Part shown: positions 12,204 to 20,994 of the stretch, one piece after another | Layout: each line of letters opens with the position of its first letter | How positions within the stretch are numbered: the first letter of the stretch is position 1 | Origin: Candidatus Nomurabacteria bacterium | GTDB lineage: Bacteria; Patescibacteriota; Minisyncoccia; Phycocordibacterales; UBA9973 | DNA: 41,372 nucleotides | Assembly (NCBI GenBank): GCA_943359485.1 | Contig: CALRHR010000007.1 | Location: 1 to 41,372 of the forward strand | Reading direction: 5' to 3' | The notes under the pieces: model-generated | Told to the model about the DNA's origin: nothing | Databases searched by the model: none | Seen by the model: the letters and a program-made list of their open reading frames with translations, nothing else | Made by a program: the position numbers and the translations under genes

Positions 12204-12608
12204 ATGAACGAATCAACCCAGTATACAGAATGGTTAAAGCCTTCATGGGCACCACCCTCTTGGCTTTTTGGACCAGTATGGACAGTTTTATATGCAATTA
12301 TTGCCATATCTTTCGGTACAGTATTTTACAAAGCATTCACCAAGCAAATTCCATGGGTAGTGGCTCTGCCTTTTGCGCTCAATTTATTTTTTAATTTCAT
12401 ATTCACACCGATACAATTTGGACTCAAAAACAATCTTCTCGCTTCTGTTGATATCTTACTCGTGGTCGGCACACTGGTCTGGGCGCTCTATGCCATTTGG
12501 CATGCTTCACCTGAACTTCGCTGGGTTGTCTATGCCAACATTCCATATCTCCTCTGGGGCACATTCGCCACTTGTTTACAATTAACCATAACCTACTTAA
12601 ATAGGTAA
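12204..12608 (+). CDS. tspO: TspO/MBR (tryptophan-rich sensory) membrane protein
   Basis: The 134 aa show the family core KPSWAPPSWLFGPVWTVLYA, the Trp-rich membrane helices and the NLFFNFIFTPIQFGLKN segment, which binds porphyrins or cholesterol-like ligands in relatives. Most TspO proteins are about 155 aa with five helices; this one starts at the loop after helix 1, and no upstream start is available, so helix 1 appears to be missing. Leaderless-type promoter TGCTACAAT lies 7 nt before ATG. Confidence 0.88.
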   Translation: MNESTQYTEWLKPSWAPPSWLFGPVWTVLYAIIAISFGTVFYKAFTKQIPWVVALPFALNLFFNFIFTPIQFGLKNNLLASVDILLVVGTLVWALYAIWHASPELRWVVYANIPYLLWGTFATCLQLTITYLNR

Positions 12609-12617
12609 TATGTTAGA

Positions 12618-13184
12618 ATGGGGAAAATGAGGAAATTTCATTACTATAATTACATTGGGATATTCAATATAATTTTTATACTGCTTGCTACAGCACTAAG
12701 CTTGCTTGTTTCTAATGGTGTAGACTTTCGCTCTCATCCAATCAGTGCGCTAGGTGCAGATATAAAAGGAGGTATATATTTTAACGGTGGATTGATCATG
12801 TTTGCAATACTTCAGGTATTCTTCGCCCTGATTCTGTGTCACAAAGCAAAATCGGGCGTAGTGCCCAAAGTGTTTTTTGTTGTCGGGGGTCTATTCCTTG
12901 TGTTGGCTGGGTATTTTCAGTATGGCATCTATACTTCTTTGCATAATTGGTTTGGAACCCTATGCGCGTTATTTGTCGCGACTGGGATCATGATGATATC
13001 GCGGAGCTTATTTAAAAAATCATCCTTGTTACAATATTTTGTCTACGCATCACTAGTGTCAGTTATCGCCAGTTTTTTCCTTCAGGATGCTTTGCTCGGA
13101 GCACGATGGGAGATACTGATGGTAATAGGAATCACCGCTTGGAATGTCATTTTGTCTATTCCGCTTATCAAGCATAGAGCATAG
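12618..13184 (+). CDS. DUF998-like integral membrane protein
   Basis: About 188 aa with six predicted membrane helices and the pattern SHPISALGADIKGGIYFNGGLI followed by HNWFGTLCALFVATGIMM, which resembles the DUF998 family. Function unknown. It starts 9 nt after tspO; a TAATAT box 6 nt before ATG could also serve it directly. An alternative start is the Met three codons downstream (MRKFHYYN). Confidence 0.7.
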   Translation: MGKMRKFHYYNYIGIFNIIFILLATALSLLVSNGVDFRSHPISALGADIKGGIYFNGGLIMFAILQVFFALILCHKAKSGVVPKVFFVVGGLFLVLAGYFQYGIYTSLHNWFGTLCALFVATGIMMISRSLFKKSSLLQYFVYASLVSVIASFFLQDALLGARWEILMVIGITAWNVILSIPLIKHRA

Positions 13185-13209
13185 AGTTCCGCATTATAAA
13201 ATAAATAAT

Positions 13210-13290
13210 ATGTTTATAAAACTATTCGCAATTGCGCTCCCCATTTTCTTCACTATCGATTTGGTACCGATGCTTGAGAGAAAAATGTAA
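13210..13290 (+). pseudogene. Remnant of a DUF2177-like membrane protein
   Basis: A 26-codon frame (MFIKLFAIALPIFFTIDLV then PMLERKM and a stop) matches in style the first helix of DUF2177 proteins (roughly ...ALPVFFAIDMLWLG), which run to about 130 aa. Here the rest is gone and three stop codons follow closely. I read it as a deletion remnant; the match rests on memory of the family. Confidence 0.5.
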
Positions 13291-13339
13291 TAATGAAGCA
13301 GACACTGCCAGTTCAAATTTCGTGTTATAATTTTACTAA

Positions 13340-13738
13340 ATGCAAACTACAAAAATAAAAATCAAGATGTTGGCACTATCTCCAGTAGTTCTTCAAATTG
13401 GGATTGGTTTAGTGGTTGTTTGGTTCGGGTTACAACAAATAAATGACCCCGAGAGCTGGGTAGGGTATTTACCTTCATTTATAAAAAATCTACCAATTAG
13501 TGAAATTAATTTTGTTTATTTAAACGGATATTTCGAACTGATTTTTGGATCTCTTTTGATGGTGGGATTTTACACTAGGATTGTGTCATTTTTATTGGCT
13601 CTTCATATGGCAGGAATTGTCTACTCCCTCGGCTACAATGAAATTAGTGTCCGAGATTTTGGAATTTTCATCGCGCTCCTCGCGATTTTTCTGCACGGAA
13701 AAAGCGACTGCGATTGGGCAAGAAGTGAACCTACTTAA
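13340..13738 (+). CDS. DoxX-like membrane protein
   Basis: The 132 aa have four predicted helices with the DoxX pattern (GLVVVWFGLQQI, YLNGYFELIFGSLLMVGFYTRIVSFLLALHMAGIV). DoxX relatives are small quinone- or redox-linked membrane proteins of uncertain role. Preceded by the extended -10 TGTTATAAT with 8 nt to ATG. Converges with the next gene; the stop codons overlap by 8 bp. Confidence 0.78.
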   Translation: MQTTKIKIKMLALSPVVLQIGIGLVVVWFGLQQINDPESWVGYLPSFIKNLPISEINFVYLNGYFELIFGSLLMVGFYTRIVSFLLALHMAGIVYSLGYNEISVRDFGIFIALLAIFLHGKSDCDWARSEPT

Positions 13739-16761: not shown

Positions 16762-17079
16762 CTATCGCGTATTAATAGCAAGTTTATGTAATATTCTACA
16801 AGGTTCAACTATTCGTGGATCAATAATATTATAAAAAGCATTCAAACCAACACGGTGTACTGTAACTAACTTTGCATGACGCAACATTGCTAAATGTTGA
16901 GAAACATTTGCCTTAGTAATACCTAACTCTTTTACTAAACTTTCAACTGGCATTTCTTGTTCGCGAAGTAAATTTAAAATTTCTAATCTTTTGGAATTAG
17001 CTAAAATTTTATAGGTAACAGCATTTCTTTCATAGGCAGAACGCGGTAAAGGTCTTTTAATTTTAACACTTTTTTTCAT
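16762..17079 (-). CDS. ArsR-family winged-helix repressor
   Basis: The 105 aa contain the ArsR helix-turn-helix (ILNLLREQEMPVESLVKELG, then ITKANVSQHLAMLRHAKLV) and the beta wing (TVHRVGLNAFYNI). The metal-binding ELCVCDL motif of ArsR/SmtB is absent and only one Cys occurs (near the C-terminus), so the signal is probably not a classic metal. It is the last gene after cobO, 40 bp away; the palindrome AGTTGC-N8-GCAACT fills that gap. I infer autoregulation and control of the B12 operon. Confidence 0.88.
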   Translation of the reverse strand: MKKSVKIKRPLPRSAYERNAVTYKILANSKRLEILNLLREQEMPVESLVKELGITKANVSQHLAMLRHAKLVTVHRVGLNAFYNIIDPRIVEPCRILHKLAINTR

Positions 17080-17084
17080 TCTTG

Positions 17085-17116
17085 AAGTATGGTCTAAGTT
17101 GCAGAAAAATGCAACT
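17085..17116 (-). promoter_or_regulatory. arsR promoter with predicted operator
   Basis: The palindrome AGTTGC-AGAAAAAT-GCAACT (17097-17116) abuts a CATACT -10-like box (17085-17090), which lies 5-6 nt before the ATG. Half-sites and 8-bp spacing are identical to the copy at 20517-20536 upstream of the same operon. Bound repressor would cover the -35/spacer. Confidence 0.7.
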
Positions 17117-17118
17117 AA

Positions 17119-17640
17119 CTAAAAATCTAAGTCCTTGGTAGCCTTTATGCCTTTTTGATATGGATGTTTTATTTCCAACATCTCTGTAACTAAATCTGCT
17201 CTATCTATGATTTCTTTTGGGGCGTCTCGCCCTGTAGTTATCGTATATTCAACTTTATCTTTAGCATAATCTAAAAAAGCCATAACATAAGAAAGTGGTA
17301 TAAGCCCCAAAGCAATAGCATTATGTATCTCATCAAGAATAAGTAAATGATATTTACCATGAGCTATCTCTTTGCGAGCAGTGAGTATCCCCATCTCAGC
17401 TGCGTCTCTATGTTCGTCTATTGTTAGATTGTCACCCAAAATACCCACAAAACCTTTTCCGGTTTTAATAATTTTAAAATCTGGTGCAAGACGCAGGGCA
17501 GAGTTGTGTTCACCAGAATCCCAAGTACCTTTTATAAACTGAATCATGATTGCTTGTTTCCCAGCACCCAAGAGCCGCAGCGCATTCCCAAGCGCAGCTG
17601 TAGTTTTACCTTTACCATTTCCTGTAAATGCTAATAACAT
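17119..17640 (-). CDS. cobO: Corrinoid adenosyltransferase CobO/BtuR
   Basis: Transfers the adenosyl group of ATP to cob(I)alamin to make adenosylcobalamin, the cofactor of NrdJ. The 173 aa show the family P-loop TGNGKGKTTAALG (6-18), MIQFIKG, the ILDEIHNAI strand, the TTGRDAP motif and the C-terminal KHPYQKGIKATKDLDF that closes the active site. It starts 3 nt after nrdJ, so cofactor activation and use are co-expressed. Confidence 0.93.
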   Translation of the reverse strand: MLLAFTGNGKGKTTAALGNALRLLGAGKQAIMIQFIKGTWDSGEHNSALRLAPDFKIIKTGKGFVGILGDNLTIDEHRDAAEMGILTARKEIAHGKYHLLILDEIHNAIALGLIPLSYVMAFLDYAKDKVEYTITTGRDAPKEIIDRADLVTEMLEIKHPYQKGIKATKDLDF

Positions 17641-17643
17641 AAA

Positions 17644-19914
17644 TTAGACTTCACAAAGCCCAGCTACACAAGCGAGCTCACGCTTAACCTCAGTTTCATC
17701 AATTTTTTCATATGTTACAATTTTAGAAAAATCTAAGTTTTCAATCTTTTTCATCATTTCTTCGTAACGCTCCTTAGTTATAGTTTCATATGGAGCCAGT
17801 TGATAGACATGATTACTGCGAGGTAAAAAAGACAAACCACCTACTAAATCCCAATTTTCATAAACCCAATTTAAAACTTTTATCCATTCATCTTCGCCTA
17901 CAGAAATAGTCACCGATGGGTTATGTTCTGTGTAATGTACTTTTACTATCTTCCAATGTTCAAGTTGTTCAATAGCTGAAATATCATCTTTACAGATTGC
18001 ACCATCTGGGGCTTTTACTGGGAATTCAAGTACATAGGTGGTTGCATTCTCCATACTCTGCCCAACTTCTGGAAAGTATGGCACCCCTTGGTCTTTCAGC
18101 ATTTTAAACAATGCATCCGTAGCTGATATTCGTACTCGACGAATATAATACGGGGCATGCCTAGGGTGCATTCCAGAAGCGCAATCTACTGTCTGAGAAA
18201 CTGTACCTGAAGGTTTTACGCAGGTTATACAAGTAGAAGATCCAATTCCAAAACGTTTTGCATATTTTTTATTTACTTCAATAGAAAAATCTTTTAATTT
18301 TCCTAAAACCTCAGGATCACGTACTATTTTAGAATCCCACTGACCAGTTACAGAAACACCCAGAAGTCTTTCTTTTTCACAATTTTTCTTCCATTCAGAA
18401 GATAAATATGGAAAATATGTTAAAGAAGATTGATAAGTCCCTAGAATAGTAGCTAGCTTTATTTTTCTAAGTAAACTTTCTTCTGTATCTAGGGCTCGAG
18501 CCACGACTTCACTTAGATTACAAAATTGTTTTGATTGTAATATAATCTCTCCGCAAGGGTTTGTCCCCCAAGCAGGAAAAGCACCCTCGAATTGCTTTAA
18601 TCTTCTTTTGGGTAAAGTTTTAGCCAAGCCCCCACGATTAAATATTCCACGCTCTCCACTACCACTCTTAACTAAAGCAGTCCATTCATCTAAAAATTCA
18701 GAAGTAGGTGGTTTAGAATTATAAACAGCAGAATTATTAGCGAGCATTCTCTGTGCTTCTGTGTTATAAAATTGTCCTTTTTTTGAATCACGAATCGCGT
18801 CATCATCTAAATCTGACAAAGATATCATCGCACTTCTTCTTACTCCACCAGCCACAACACATTCACCTATTTTACAAATAATATCATGGGCATCTAAATT
18901 CGTAAGATGTCTCCCTTGTCTACGCAAAATTCTTTCACGACTAAACTCTAAAAGAGAGCGAATCGGTGCTGGGCCAGAACTCTTGCCACCCATAGTTTTT
19001 AACATTGAGCCAGCGGGACGAATTAATGAAAAATCAAAAGCTACATCATTTCCTTCAAAATAGGTTTTTAAAGCCAAAGAAAATGCATCCGCCCAGCCTT
19101 CCTTGCTGTCAGGAATAACATAAGTGGGTAAAACTTTTCCGTTCTGCTTTTTAATTTGGGGTAAGGCCTGGATATTCTCACTCTCCACAGACCACCCCAC
19201 TCCAGTGCCACACATTGAAACATACATAATTTCAGCAAAATCTTGAAAAGTTTTTGGAGCAATAAATGAACAATTATAAGCACAAATGTTGGTCTTGCGA
19301 GCCGCCCTGCCAGCAAATTGAAGCAACCTCATTGAAGGCATAACTTCTTGATTTAAAATGGCCTCCCTAATTTCTTTATACTCTATAGGTGTTAATTTGG
19401 AGCCCAAATTCTCTCTCATAAAAATCATATATCTATCAATAGTTTCGATCCAAGTCTCTCGCCTCCCCTGTTCGGGAATCCACTTGGCATAAGTACGATA
19501 ATATACAAATTCAGCCAAAGGGTTTCTAAAATACTTTTTGCTTTCTGCTACAAGTTCTTTTACTTTTTCTGGAACAAAACCAACACGCTGTCTAACATCT
19601 GCACGATTTTTTCTGTATAAAATATAATTTTTAGCAGTTTGAATAAAATTTGTTGCAATTAACTCATTCTCTACAATATCCTGAATTGTTTCAACGTTTG
19701 GAATAAAAACTTTTTCTTTTTTTTCTTGTCTTAACACCAGTAATGCATCTAATACTTTTACTGTTACATGCTCCGCATCTATTTCTCCACCTTCGTGACT
19801 TACTTCCATAGCTCGAGAAATAGCGTGTAGTATGTGTTTCTCGTCAAAAGGTACTACTCTGGTGTCGCGTTTTTGTATTTTCTGTAAAATTTTATATTTT
19901 ATATTTTTTTTCAT
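17644..19914 (-). CDS. nrdJ: Adenosylcobalamin-dependent ribonucleotide reductase NrdJ (class II)
   Basis: Reduces ribonucleotides to deoxyribonucleotides with AdoCbl as radical source, without oxygen or an iron subunit. The 756 aa have an N-terminal ATP cone (about 18-105, TRVVPFDEKHILHAISRAM), the active-site Cys regions (NICAYNCSFIAP; WGTNPCGEIIL), the SGTVSQTVDCASGMHPRHAP segment and a C-terminal Cys749-x4-Cys754 pair (CVAGLC) that is re-reduced each turn. Length and the Cx4C tail match monomeric RTPR-type enzymes. It overlaps the upstream transporter gene by 4 nt (ATGA). No other RNR is seen here. Confidence 0.95.
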   Translation of the reverse strand: MKKNIKYKILQKIQKRDTRVVPFDEKHILHAISRAMEVSHEGGEIDAEHVTVKVLDALLVLRQEKKEKVFIPNVETIQDIVENELIATNFIQTAKNYILYRKNRADVRQRVGFVPEKVKELVAESKKYFRNPLAEFVYYRTYAKWIPEQGRRETWIETIDRYMIFMRENLGSKLTPIEYKEIREAILNQEVMPSMRLLQFAGRAARKTNICAYNCSFIAPKTFQDFAEIMYVSMCGTGVGWSVESENIQALPQIKKQNGKVLPTYVIPDSKEGWADAFSLALKTYFEGNDVAFDFSLIRPAGSMLKTMGGKSSGPAPIRSLLEFSRERILRRQGRHLTNLDAHDIICKIGECVVAGGVRRSAMISLSDLDDDAIRDSKKGQFYNTEAQRMLANNSAVYNSKPPTSEFLDEWTALVKSGSGERGIFNRGGLAKTLPKRRLKQFEGAFPAWGTNPCGEIILQSKQFCNLSEVVARALDTEESLLRKIKLATILGTYQSSLTYFPYLSSEWKKNCEKERLLGVSVTGQWDSKIVRDPEVLGKLKDFSIEVNKKYAKRFGIGSSTCITCVKPSGTVSQTVDCASGMHPRHAPYYIRRVRISATDALFKMLKDQGVPYFPEVGQSMENATTYVLEFPVKAPDGAICKDDISAIEQLEHWKIVKVHYTEHNPSVTISVGEDEWIKVLNWVYENWDLVGGLSFLPRSNHVYQLAPYETITKERYEEMMKKIENLDFSKIVTYEKIDETEVKRELACVAGLCEV

Positions 19915-20456
19915 ATGCTTTTCTTTAAAAGAACTTTTGTTAGGTACGAATTTTCTAATTTTTCATTTTTAATCACATAACTGTATAACGCAGGACTTAG
20001 GATGAAAGCGAACGAGATATTACCGGCCAGATGCCACATAGTAAAAGGTATTTGCCCAACTAGTGCTTCCATAAAAGATTGATGAAAAAAGAGTGGGCCA
20101 ATAGATAAACCAGTAACACCATCAAAAAATAAAGTTCCTAAAATTGCAAAACGTACATAACTCCATCTACTCGGCTCTTGTTCTTTTAAAAAATAAAAAG
20201 CCCAGAAACCTAGCAGCCCGTAAGTACCCGCAGTCAAAAAAGACCACATACCATAATGTCCTGTAATTAAATCAAATAAAATAATACTAAAAAATGCAAA
20301 AAGAAAACCAGGGAAAGCACCGTAAGATTTTGAAAATGGCATCTGTGTGGCTAAAATTGGCTCTACATTAGGTGGGCGAAAAGGTATTAACCTTACTATC
20401 ATACATAAAATAAAACCTACTATAAACTTAAGCCAATTTTTTTGATATTTTTCCAT
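19911..20456 (-). CDS. ECF-type S component (DUF6580-like), predicted corrinoid uptake
   Basis: The 181-aa protein has five or six membrane helices and the pattern IRLIPFRPPNVEPILATQMPF ... LFDLITGHYGMWSFLTAGTYGL ... PFTMWHLAGNISFAFILSPALY, which resembles DUF6580/ECF S-component proteins. S components bind a vitamin and dock on a shared energising module, whose genes are not in this window. Because it heads the operon with nrdJ and cobO, I infer cobalamin or cobinamide as substrate. The family call is fairly firm; the substrate rests on context. Confidence 0.75.
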   Translation of the reverse strand: MEKYQKNWLKFIVGFILCMIVRLIPFRPPNVEPILATQMPFSKSYGAFPGFLFAFFSIILFDLITGHYGMWSFLTAGTYGLLGFWAFYFLKEQEPSRWSYVRFAILGTLFFDGVTGLSIGPLFFHQSFMEALVGQIPFTMWHLAGNISFAFILSPALYSYVIKNEKLENSYLTKVLLKKSI

Positions 20457-20504
20457 GAAATTTAAACTGTTAATAATTATTTTTGTTTAAAACACAAAAT
20501 AGTG

Positions 20505-20550
20505 TATAATATATATAGTTGCAGAGTTTCGCAACTATGTAACTATTATA
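20505..20550. promoter_or_regulatory. Face-to-face promoters with a shared palindromic operator
   Basis: Plus strand TATAAT (20505-20510) points right to the DoxX-like gene; minus-strand TATAAT (20550-20545) points left to the transporter-nrdJ-cobO operon. Between them lies ATAGTTGC-AGAGTTTC-GCAACTAT (20515-20538), the same AGTTGC-N8-GCAACT site as before arsR. Both transcripts would start in or run through the operator, so one bound repressor could block both. The leader to the transporter is about 80 nt, too short for a cobalamin riboswitch, and none is seen. Confidence 0.75.
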
Positions 20551-20619
20551 CACGAGAGTGGTCACCTCATGTAAAGTGGATAACTATAATTATTAACATT
20601 ACAACACAGAATAAAAAAA

Positions 20620-20994
20620 ATGAACAATAAAAAAATGGAATGGATTTTGCGTATTGCGGTGGCTGGAGAGTTTATAGGTCATGGAGTCTTTGCAATACAG
20701 GGTAAAGAGGGGTGGTTTAAATACTTTGAACCATTTGGGGTCACAGATCCGGGTACAATCACCACTCTCTTGATGCTTGTAGGTATAGCAGATTTATTAC
20801 TAGCCTTATTAGTACTTATTAAACCAATCCGACTTGCGGTTTTGTGGATGGCTGTTTGGGGACTTTTTACTGCACTTATTCGCTGGCCTATAGGTCCTGA
20901 TCCTGTTTGGGATTTCGTTGAAAGATGGGCCAACTGGGGTGCACCGCTTGTGCTCTATATGATGCTTGGTGGCAGGTTTGGATTTAAGGAGTAG
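20620..20994 (+). CDS. DoxX-like membrane protein of the ArsR regulon
   Basis: The 124 aa have four helices with a DoxX-like layout (LRIAVAGEFIGHGVFAI, TITTLLMLVGIADLLLALLVLI, LVLYMMLGGRFGF) and conserved Gly and His residues. It diverges from the B12 operon across the shared operator, so it is probably co-regulated. Its own function is unknown; a redox or membrane role is possible. The mRNA leader would be about 100 nt. Confidence 0.7.
   Translation: MNNKKMEWILRIAVAGEFIGHGVFAIQGKEGWFKYFEPFGVTDPGTITTLLMLVGIADLLLALLVLIKPIRLAVLWMAVWGLFTALIRWPIGPDPVWDFVERWANWGAPLVLYMMLGGRFGFKE

Follow-up and report, generated by a model that had tools for sequence, protein, structure and literature searches.

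The closest described systems are regulators of ribonucleotide reductase (RNR) genes, on the one hand, and thiol-redox repressors of the ArsR/SmtB family, on the other. FNR is an iron-sulfur activator of the CRP family, and the nrdAB genes of Streptomyces lie under a B12 riboswitch. NrdR represses RNR operons of different classes via palindromes in their promoters (PMC12176259, PMC4009431); according to the citing passages of PMC4009431, it is involved in the cross-regulation of NrdAB and NrdJ in Streptomyces (Borovok et al. 2004), and the E. coli nrdDG genes, which encode the anaerobic RNR, are under oxygen-linked FNR. Among the ArsR/SmtB repressors, RexT binds the palindrome ATTCG-N15-CGAAT, and HlyU, SqrR and BigR have a Cys pair in common (PMC8960804). 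Here, we describe a window of 41,372 nucleotides from the 713,242-base genome of a member of the Patescibacteria (G000), in which the minus strand carries, in this order, a gene for a protein resembling the S component of energy-coupling factor (ECF) transporters (ecfS-like), nrdJ (class II RNR), cobO and arsR. Comparison of related genomes makes it nearly certain that the ArsR protein and a palindromic site found at both ends of this operon belong together, and ArsR very probably represses the accessory RNR, as we infer from the anatomy of the sites. How genes are regulated in Patescibacteria (the candidate phyla radiation, CPR), in which many standard regulators are missing, is poorly known.

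The site, AGTTGC-N8-GCAACT, has only two exact copies in the window genome, before arsR (17097-17116) and before ecfS-nrdJ-cobO (20517-20536), which is where the original prediction had placed them, and it recurs at both places in relatives. No copy with one mismatch was found in this genome, nor any exact copy of the reversed pattern that served as a control, and neither the strict (0-1 mismatch) nor a relaxed pattern revealed further regulon members there. Within a family comparison set of 147 genomes, the exact site is present in 17 and the reversed control in two; thus, the motif is not one that turns up at random. An ArsR orthologue (threshold E<1e-40) was found in 18 of these genomes, 13 of which also contain the exact site, compared with 4 of the 129 genomes lacking ArsR (p=1.3e-11, by a Fisher test that ignores shared ancestry). 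When the regions upstream of the RNR operons were compared directly in 14 genomes with and 14 without ArsR (G005 and G075 being left out), the operator, scored as present with ≤1 mismatch or with symmetric double changes, preceded the operon in 14/14 of the former and 0/14 of the latter (Fisher p=2.5e-8, again ignoring shared ancestry). Hence, the conservation anticipated for related genomes is indeed seen. The rest of the RNR operon promoter is largely kept in the ArsR-negative genomes without the operator, and several of them retain one operator arm only; such decayed half-operators are expected once the regulator has been lost. Moreover, the arms change symmetrically, to GGTTGC/GCAACC in G079 and G101 and to AGTTTC/GAAACT in G004. 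In two of the four ArsR-negative genomes that have the exact motif (G005 and G075), it is found at the nrd operon, and the contigs are short and stop soon after nrdJ, so that a linked arsR could be missing from the assembly; in the other two (G076 and G118), it lies inside coding open reading frames (ORFs), and these copies were rejected as operators and taken as chance. A third exact copy in G092 (G092:C4:144091-144110; L126:4092-4111) forms part of a longer palindrome; it adjoins rplB, in a non-coding region flanked by genes for ribosomal proteins.

The occurrence of ArsR follows that of a second RNR. The window genome encodes a complete class I NrdA-NrdB elsewhere, and among the family genomes ArsR is present in 14 of the 16 that have both NrdJ and NrdB and in 1 of the 87 that have NrdJ only (p=2.6e-14, in a test that ignores shared ancestry). 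The two exceptions with both enzymes are G005, whose operator lies on a contig ending soon after nrdJ, and G022. On a tree of 53 NrdJ proteins, the ArsR state changed about nine times, and NrdB moved with ArsR in about 3.8 of the 4 contrasts on well-supported branches and almost never in the opposite direction. No operator was seen before nrdAB, and NrdR (TIGR00244) exceeded its cut-off in none of the 147 family genomes, compared with 9 of 14 control genomes. The accessory enzyme itself varies under the regulator. In G079, which has no NrdJ, an ArsR 91% identical to that of the window is accompanied by both sites, which flank nrdD (class III), nrdG and genes for a cysteine desulfurase and a flavin reductase; this genome amounts to an experiment of nature, with one RNR class exchanged for another under a switch that was kept. 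In G078, the nrdJ under ArsR comes from a different clade (60% identity), and in G514, from another family, ArsR adjoins a third RNR type, NrdJ_Z, together with cobO, and a one-mismatch site precedes a transcobalamin-like gene.

The positions of the sites within the promoters suggest how they might work. At arsR, the operator is situated between cobO and arsR, over the -35 box and the spacer; promoter alignment places the -35 TTGCAT (17109-17114, minus strand) within the operator and the -10 CATACT (17086-17091, minus strand) at 17-bp spacing from it, 6 nt from the ATG. This geometry (spacer of 16-17, mostly 6 nt to ATG) recurs in 10 of the 12 aligned loci, and because the -10 box ends 6 nt ahead of the ATG, the arsR mRNA is predicted to be leaderless. 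The operator at the operon promoter, located by pattern match, contains an extra internal half-site, GAAAC, and is overlapped by an imperfect copy with two mismatches, 8 bp out of register (AGTTTCGCAACTATGTAACT, 20525-20544). It lies 8 bp past the operon -10 TATAAT (20545-20550, minus strand), which is kept in relatives and has a candidate -35 TTTACA (20570-20575, minus strand) at a long 19-bp spacer, and 6 bp past the TATAAT of the divergent doxX-like gene (20505-20510, plus strand), which faces it from the opposite side, as had been noticed at the outset. With this spacing, the operator falls where transcription from both facing promoters would be expected to start. The extra half-site is found in 14 of 15 nrd operators and 0 of 12 arsR operators, which have an A/T-rich core; affinity may therefore differ between the two types. 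An ArsR dimer would bind both palindromes and act as an autoregulated repressor, covering the -35 box and spacer of its own promoter and, at the operon, the start points of the two facing promoters, so that ecfS-nrdJ-cobO would be shut off and the divergent DoxX-like gene probably with it. This arrangement supports the original prediction of a single repressor that would use one type of operator at both ends of the operon, regulate itself and jointly control the facing promoters.

A DnaA-box-like sequence, GTTATCCAC (20576-20584, minus strand), overlaps the operon promoter at its upstream edge. It is kept with and without ArsR; it is near-invariant before the ecfS-nrdJ promoter in ArsR-positive and most ArsR-negative relatives and also occurs before nrdD in G079. 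In the window genome, TTATCCAC followed by TATAMT is found in five places only, including before mraZ and before a gene for a LexA-like S24 peptidase, which suggests that DnaA might control cell-cycle genes. An SOS-box-like palindrome, GTGAACGAGCGTTCAC, adjoins the DnaA-like box before the LexA-like gene (L173:2408-2454).

The product of arsR (16762-17079, minus strand; 105 aa) matches HTH_5 (E=1e-13, 51 bits against a cut-off of 22) and HTH_metalloreg (NF033788; E=1e-21, 76.6 against 55), and both its winged-helix domain and the palindrome at its own promoter are those of an ArsR/SmtB-family repressor. Its only Cys, Cys94, lies in the last helix (RIVEPCRIL) and does not vary among 18 aligned orthologues or in the two full-length homologues of other families (G475 and G514). 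The alignment contains no CxC box and no DxH..HxxE set in alpha5, His98 is variable among the 18 orthologues, and the window protein has neither a Cys-rich box in alpha3 nor a DxHx10HxxE/H site in alpha5, so the absence of the usual metal Cys box claimed earlier is borne out; nor do the orthologues have the Cys pair of SqrR, BigR and HlyU (alpha2 and alpha5/C-terminal extension), only one Cys being conserved. The AlphaFold model (predicted local distance difference test, pLDDT, 85) is closest in fold to HlyU, CzrA, SmtB, NolR and SqrR, and HlyU is also the best sequence match. Neither the domain search nor the structure model revealed an ATP-cone or nucleotide-binding domain in ArsR.

The identities first assigned to the neighbouring genes hold, albeit with weaker matches for some. 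The ecfS-like gene (19911-20456, minus strand), the first gene of an operon kept across relatives, encodes a membrane protein (DUF6580/ECF S component) putatively involved in cobalamin uptake; its matches to PF20221 and PF07155 are weak (E about 1e-5, both slightly below cut-off). The product of nrdJ (17644-19914, minus strand; 756 aa) is a probable adenosylcobalamin (AdoCbl)-dependent class II RNR with an N-terminal ATP cone, in which the ATP-cone, RNR_Alpha, lgC and RNR-II_ins_dom domains and, as the active-site Cys/Glu motif, NPCGE are found; its best NCBIfam model is RTPR (TIGR02505; E=3e-89), at 300 bits under the curated cut-off of 340 bits. Relatives of nrdJ among GTDB genomes are mostly labelled Nomurabacteria/Paceibacterota; in G071, nrdJ is split over two overlapping ORFs (L170:4299-6487), by a frameshift or an assembly error. 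The corrinoid adenosyltransferase CobO/BtuR (17119-17640, minus strand; 173 aa; PF02572, CobA_CobO_BtuR, E=1e-49) is swapped for a PduO-type enzyme (PF01923) in G012, G024, G101 and G106. The divergent gene (20620-20994, plus strand) encodes a DoxX-like membrane protein of 124 aa (Pfam DoxX, E=9e-5, slightly below cut-off). In other relatives, the gene across the operator is mostly DoxX/DoxD-like or encodes a multicopper oxidase (the latter adjoins the site in G033, G075 and G005), and PNPOx-like genes recur too. In G106, it is rpsT; a divergent two-domain ATP-binding cassette (ABC) protein considered there as an ECF ATPase was dropped, for it sits behind ribosomal S20. Elsewhere in the window, genes for TspO, a DUF998 protein and a second DoxX-like protein are consecutive (12204-13738), with no operator near them.

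In many loci, a DUF4430 protein and a squalene-cyclase-like (SQHop_cyclase-like) protein are encoded between nrdJ and arsR, and this pair resembles the two halves of animal transcobalamin. Such transcobalamin/intrinsic-factor-like proteins (DUF4430 plus a squalene-cyclase-like toroid) were seen in or near the nrdJ operon at L130:4256-6552, L139:4180-6541, L154:999-2867 and L136:6377-9050, often preceded by an AdoCbl riboswitch; it is possible that they serve to capture B12 at the surface of patescibacterial cells. The Rfam aptamer search found no cobalamin riboswitch at the nrdJ promoter or anywhere in the window. The suggestion that the repressor replaces this riboswitch is not supported by the comparison with relatives, since AdoCbl/AdoCbl-II riboswitches are found inside the ArsR-positive operons of G078, G094 and G006, before transcobalamin-like genes, and a cobalamin riboswitch follows the site in G514.

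What the repressor responds to is a separate question. It is reasonable to assume that the accessory, oxygen-independent RNR (NrdJ with its B12 supply, or NrdD-NrdG in one relative) would be silent while class I NrdAB suffices, and that the most likely release signal would be a fall in oxygen or a redox change, read at or through Cys94. Such a signal would best suit a switch from oxygen-dependent to oxygen-independent RNRs and back, in the company of oxidase and DoxX-like genes; the DoxX/DoxD, multicopper oxidase and PNPOx-like neighbours use or handle oxidants, and the nearest solved folds include two thiol-redox regulators, HlyU and SqrR. A sensor of cobalamin, i.e., a repressor that responds to AdoCbl or cob(II)alamin by adjusting the import, adenosylation and use of B12, would be in keeping with the B12-related content of most target operons (CobO/PduO-type enzymes and the transcobalamin-like proteins between nrdJ and arsR) and with G514, where the site precedes a transcobalamin-like gene and arsR lies beside nrdJ-cobO. 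However, ArsR and its two sites persist in G079, where the operon (nrdD-nrdG) is B12-independent; cobalamin riboswitches are already present in the same operons, and the same B12 genes occur without ArsR in many genomes that have NrdJ. Cobalamin sensing is thus weakened by the swap to class III and by the riboswitches within ArsR-positive operons and appears unlikely, and of the "cobalamin- or redox-responsive" repressor first proposed, the redox half fits better. It is more improbable still that ArsR stands in for NrdR, sensing nucleotide pools or the state of replication and repressing the accessory RNR when deoxynucleotides suffice. NrdR is absent from all 147 genomes, ArsR accompanies RNR genes of several classes, and a DnaA-like box is present in the same promoter; nonetheless, ArsR is devoid of an ATP-cone or nucleotide-binding domain, nrdAB is not preceded by the operator, although NrdR normally binds all RNR operons, and genomes with a single RNR manage without ArsR. 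A response to Fe, Mn, Cu or Co, by which NrdJ would be brought in when the metal of the class I RNR is short, could be expected from ArsR/SmtB family membership and from the multicopper oxidase gene that neighbours the site in three genomes. Without a CxC box or an alpha5 DxH..HxxE set, and with a single Cys and a variable His98, ArsR makes a very unlikely metal sensor, and NrdD-NrdG, being iron-dependent, would be disfavoured by iron shortage.

Several observations weigh against a redox-released repressor of the accessory RNR. The Fisher tests ignore the shared ancestry of the genomes, and the tree-based test has only four supported contrasts (p=0.125), too few for significance alone. G006 has ArsR with NrdJ only, G022 has both RNRs and no ArsR, and G114 and G115 have NrdAB and NrdDG, likewise with no ArsR. 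In G032 and G033, ArsR occurs with class I RNR only, and the site in G033, which lies next to arsR between a multicopper oxidase gene and a PNPOx-like gene, precedes genes of redox type. (The class I RNR of G033 has an ATP cone fused to its small subunit, NrdB, adjoining NrdE-prime, L191:1967-4995.) A lone Cys is unusual for a redox sensor, and a multicopper oxidase, wanted with oxygen, is odd under a switch for an anaerobic RNR unless it scavenges trace O2. In addition, DoxX is divergent in some ArsR-negative genomes as well (G071), and its co-regulation may be incidental. Taken as a whole, an autoregulated ArsR repressor of the accessory RNR, released by redox or oxygen via Cys94, nevertheless appears somewhat more probable than not. 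Within this reading, we infer that ArsR binds the DNA, that it represses and in which direction control runs, and the signal itself is a guess, as readily wrong as right.

No earlier report of an ArsR-family RNR regulator was found in the open-access literature, the coverage of which was limited, and searches there on RNR or B12 in CPR gave no matches. ArsR-type repressors themselves are known; what is new is one with a role at RNR genes. A concrete, predicted repressor-operator pair has thus been obtained for tiny, mostly uncultured bacteria, sharply associated with the coexistence of two RNRs, and it offers a handle on how such reduced-genome cells cope with oxygen and B12 scarcity. More tentatively, and with some doubt, it may be a new switch of Patescibacteria lacking NrdR, in which a one-Cys ArsR, responding to oxygen or to the redox state, would determine when a class II or III RNR replaces NrdAB. 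The window protein shares the winged-helix fold and the missing metal box with HlyU, SqrR, BigR and RexT. However, it has a single invariant Cys94 instead of the Cys pair of HlyU, SqrR and BigR, its operator is different, and its predicted targets are RNR operons rather than sulfide or peroxide genes. Like NrdR, it is predicted to act on RNR operons of different classes via promoter palindromes, but it would act on one accessory RNR only. The arrangement also differs from that in Streptomyces, for here the predicted control acts on an operon of class II or III and is exerted by an ArsR-type repressor. With FNR, it would have in common the oxygen-linked control of an oxygen-independent RNR, whereas the window protein is of ArsR type and is placed as a repressor.

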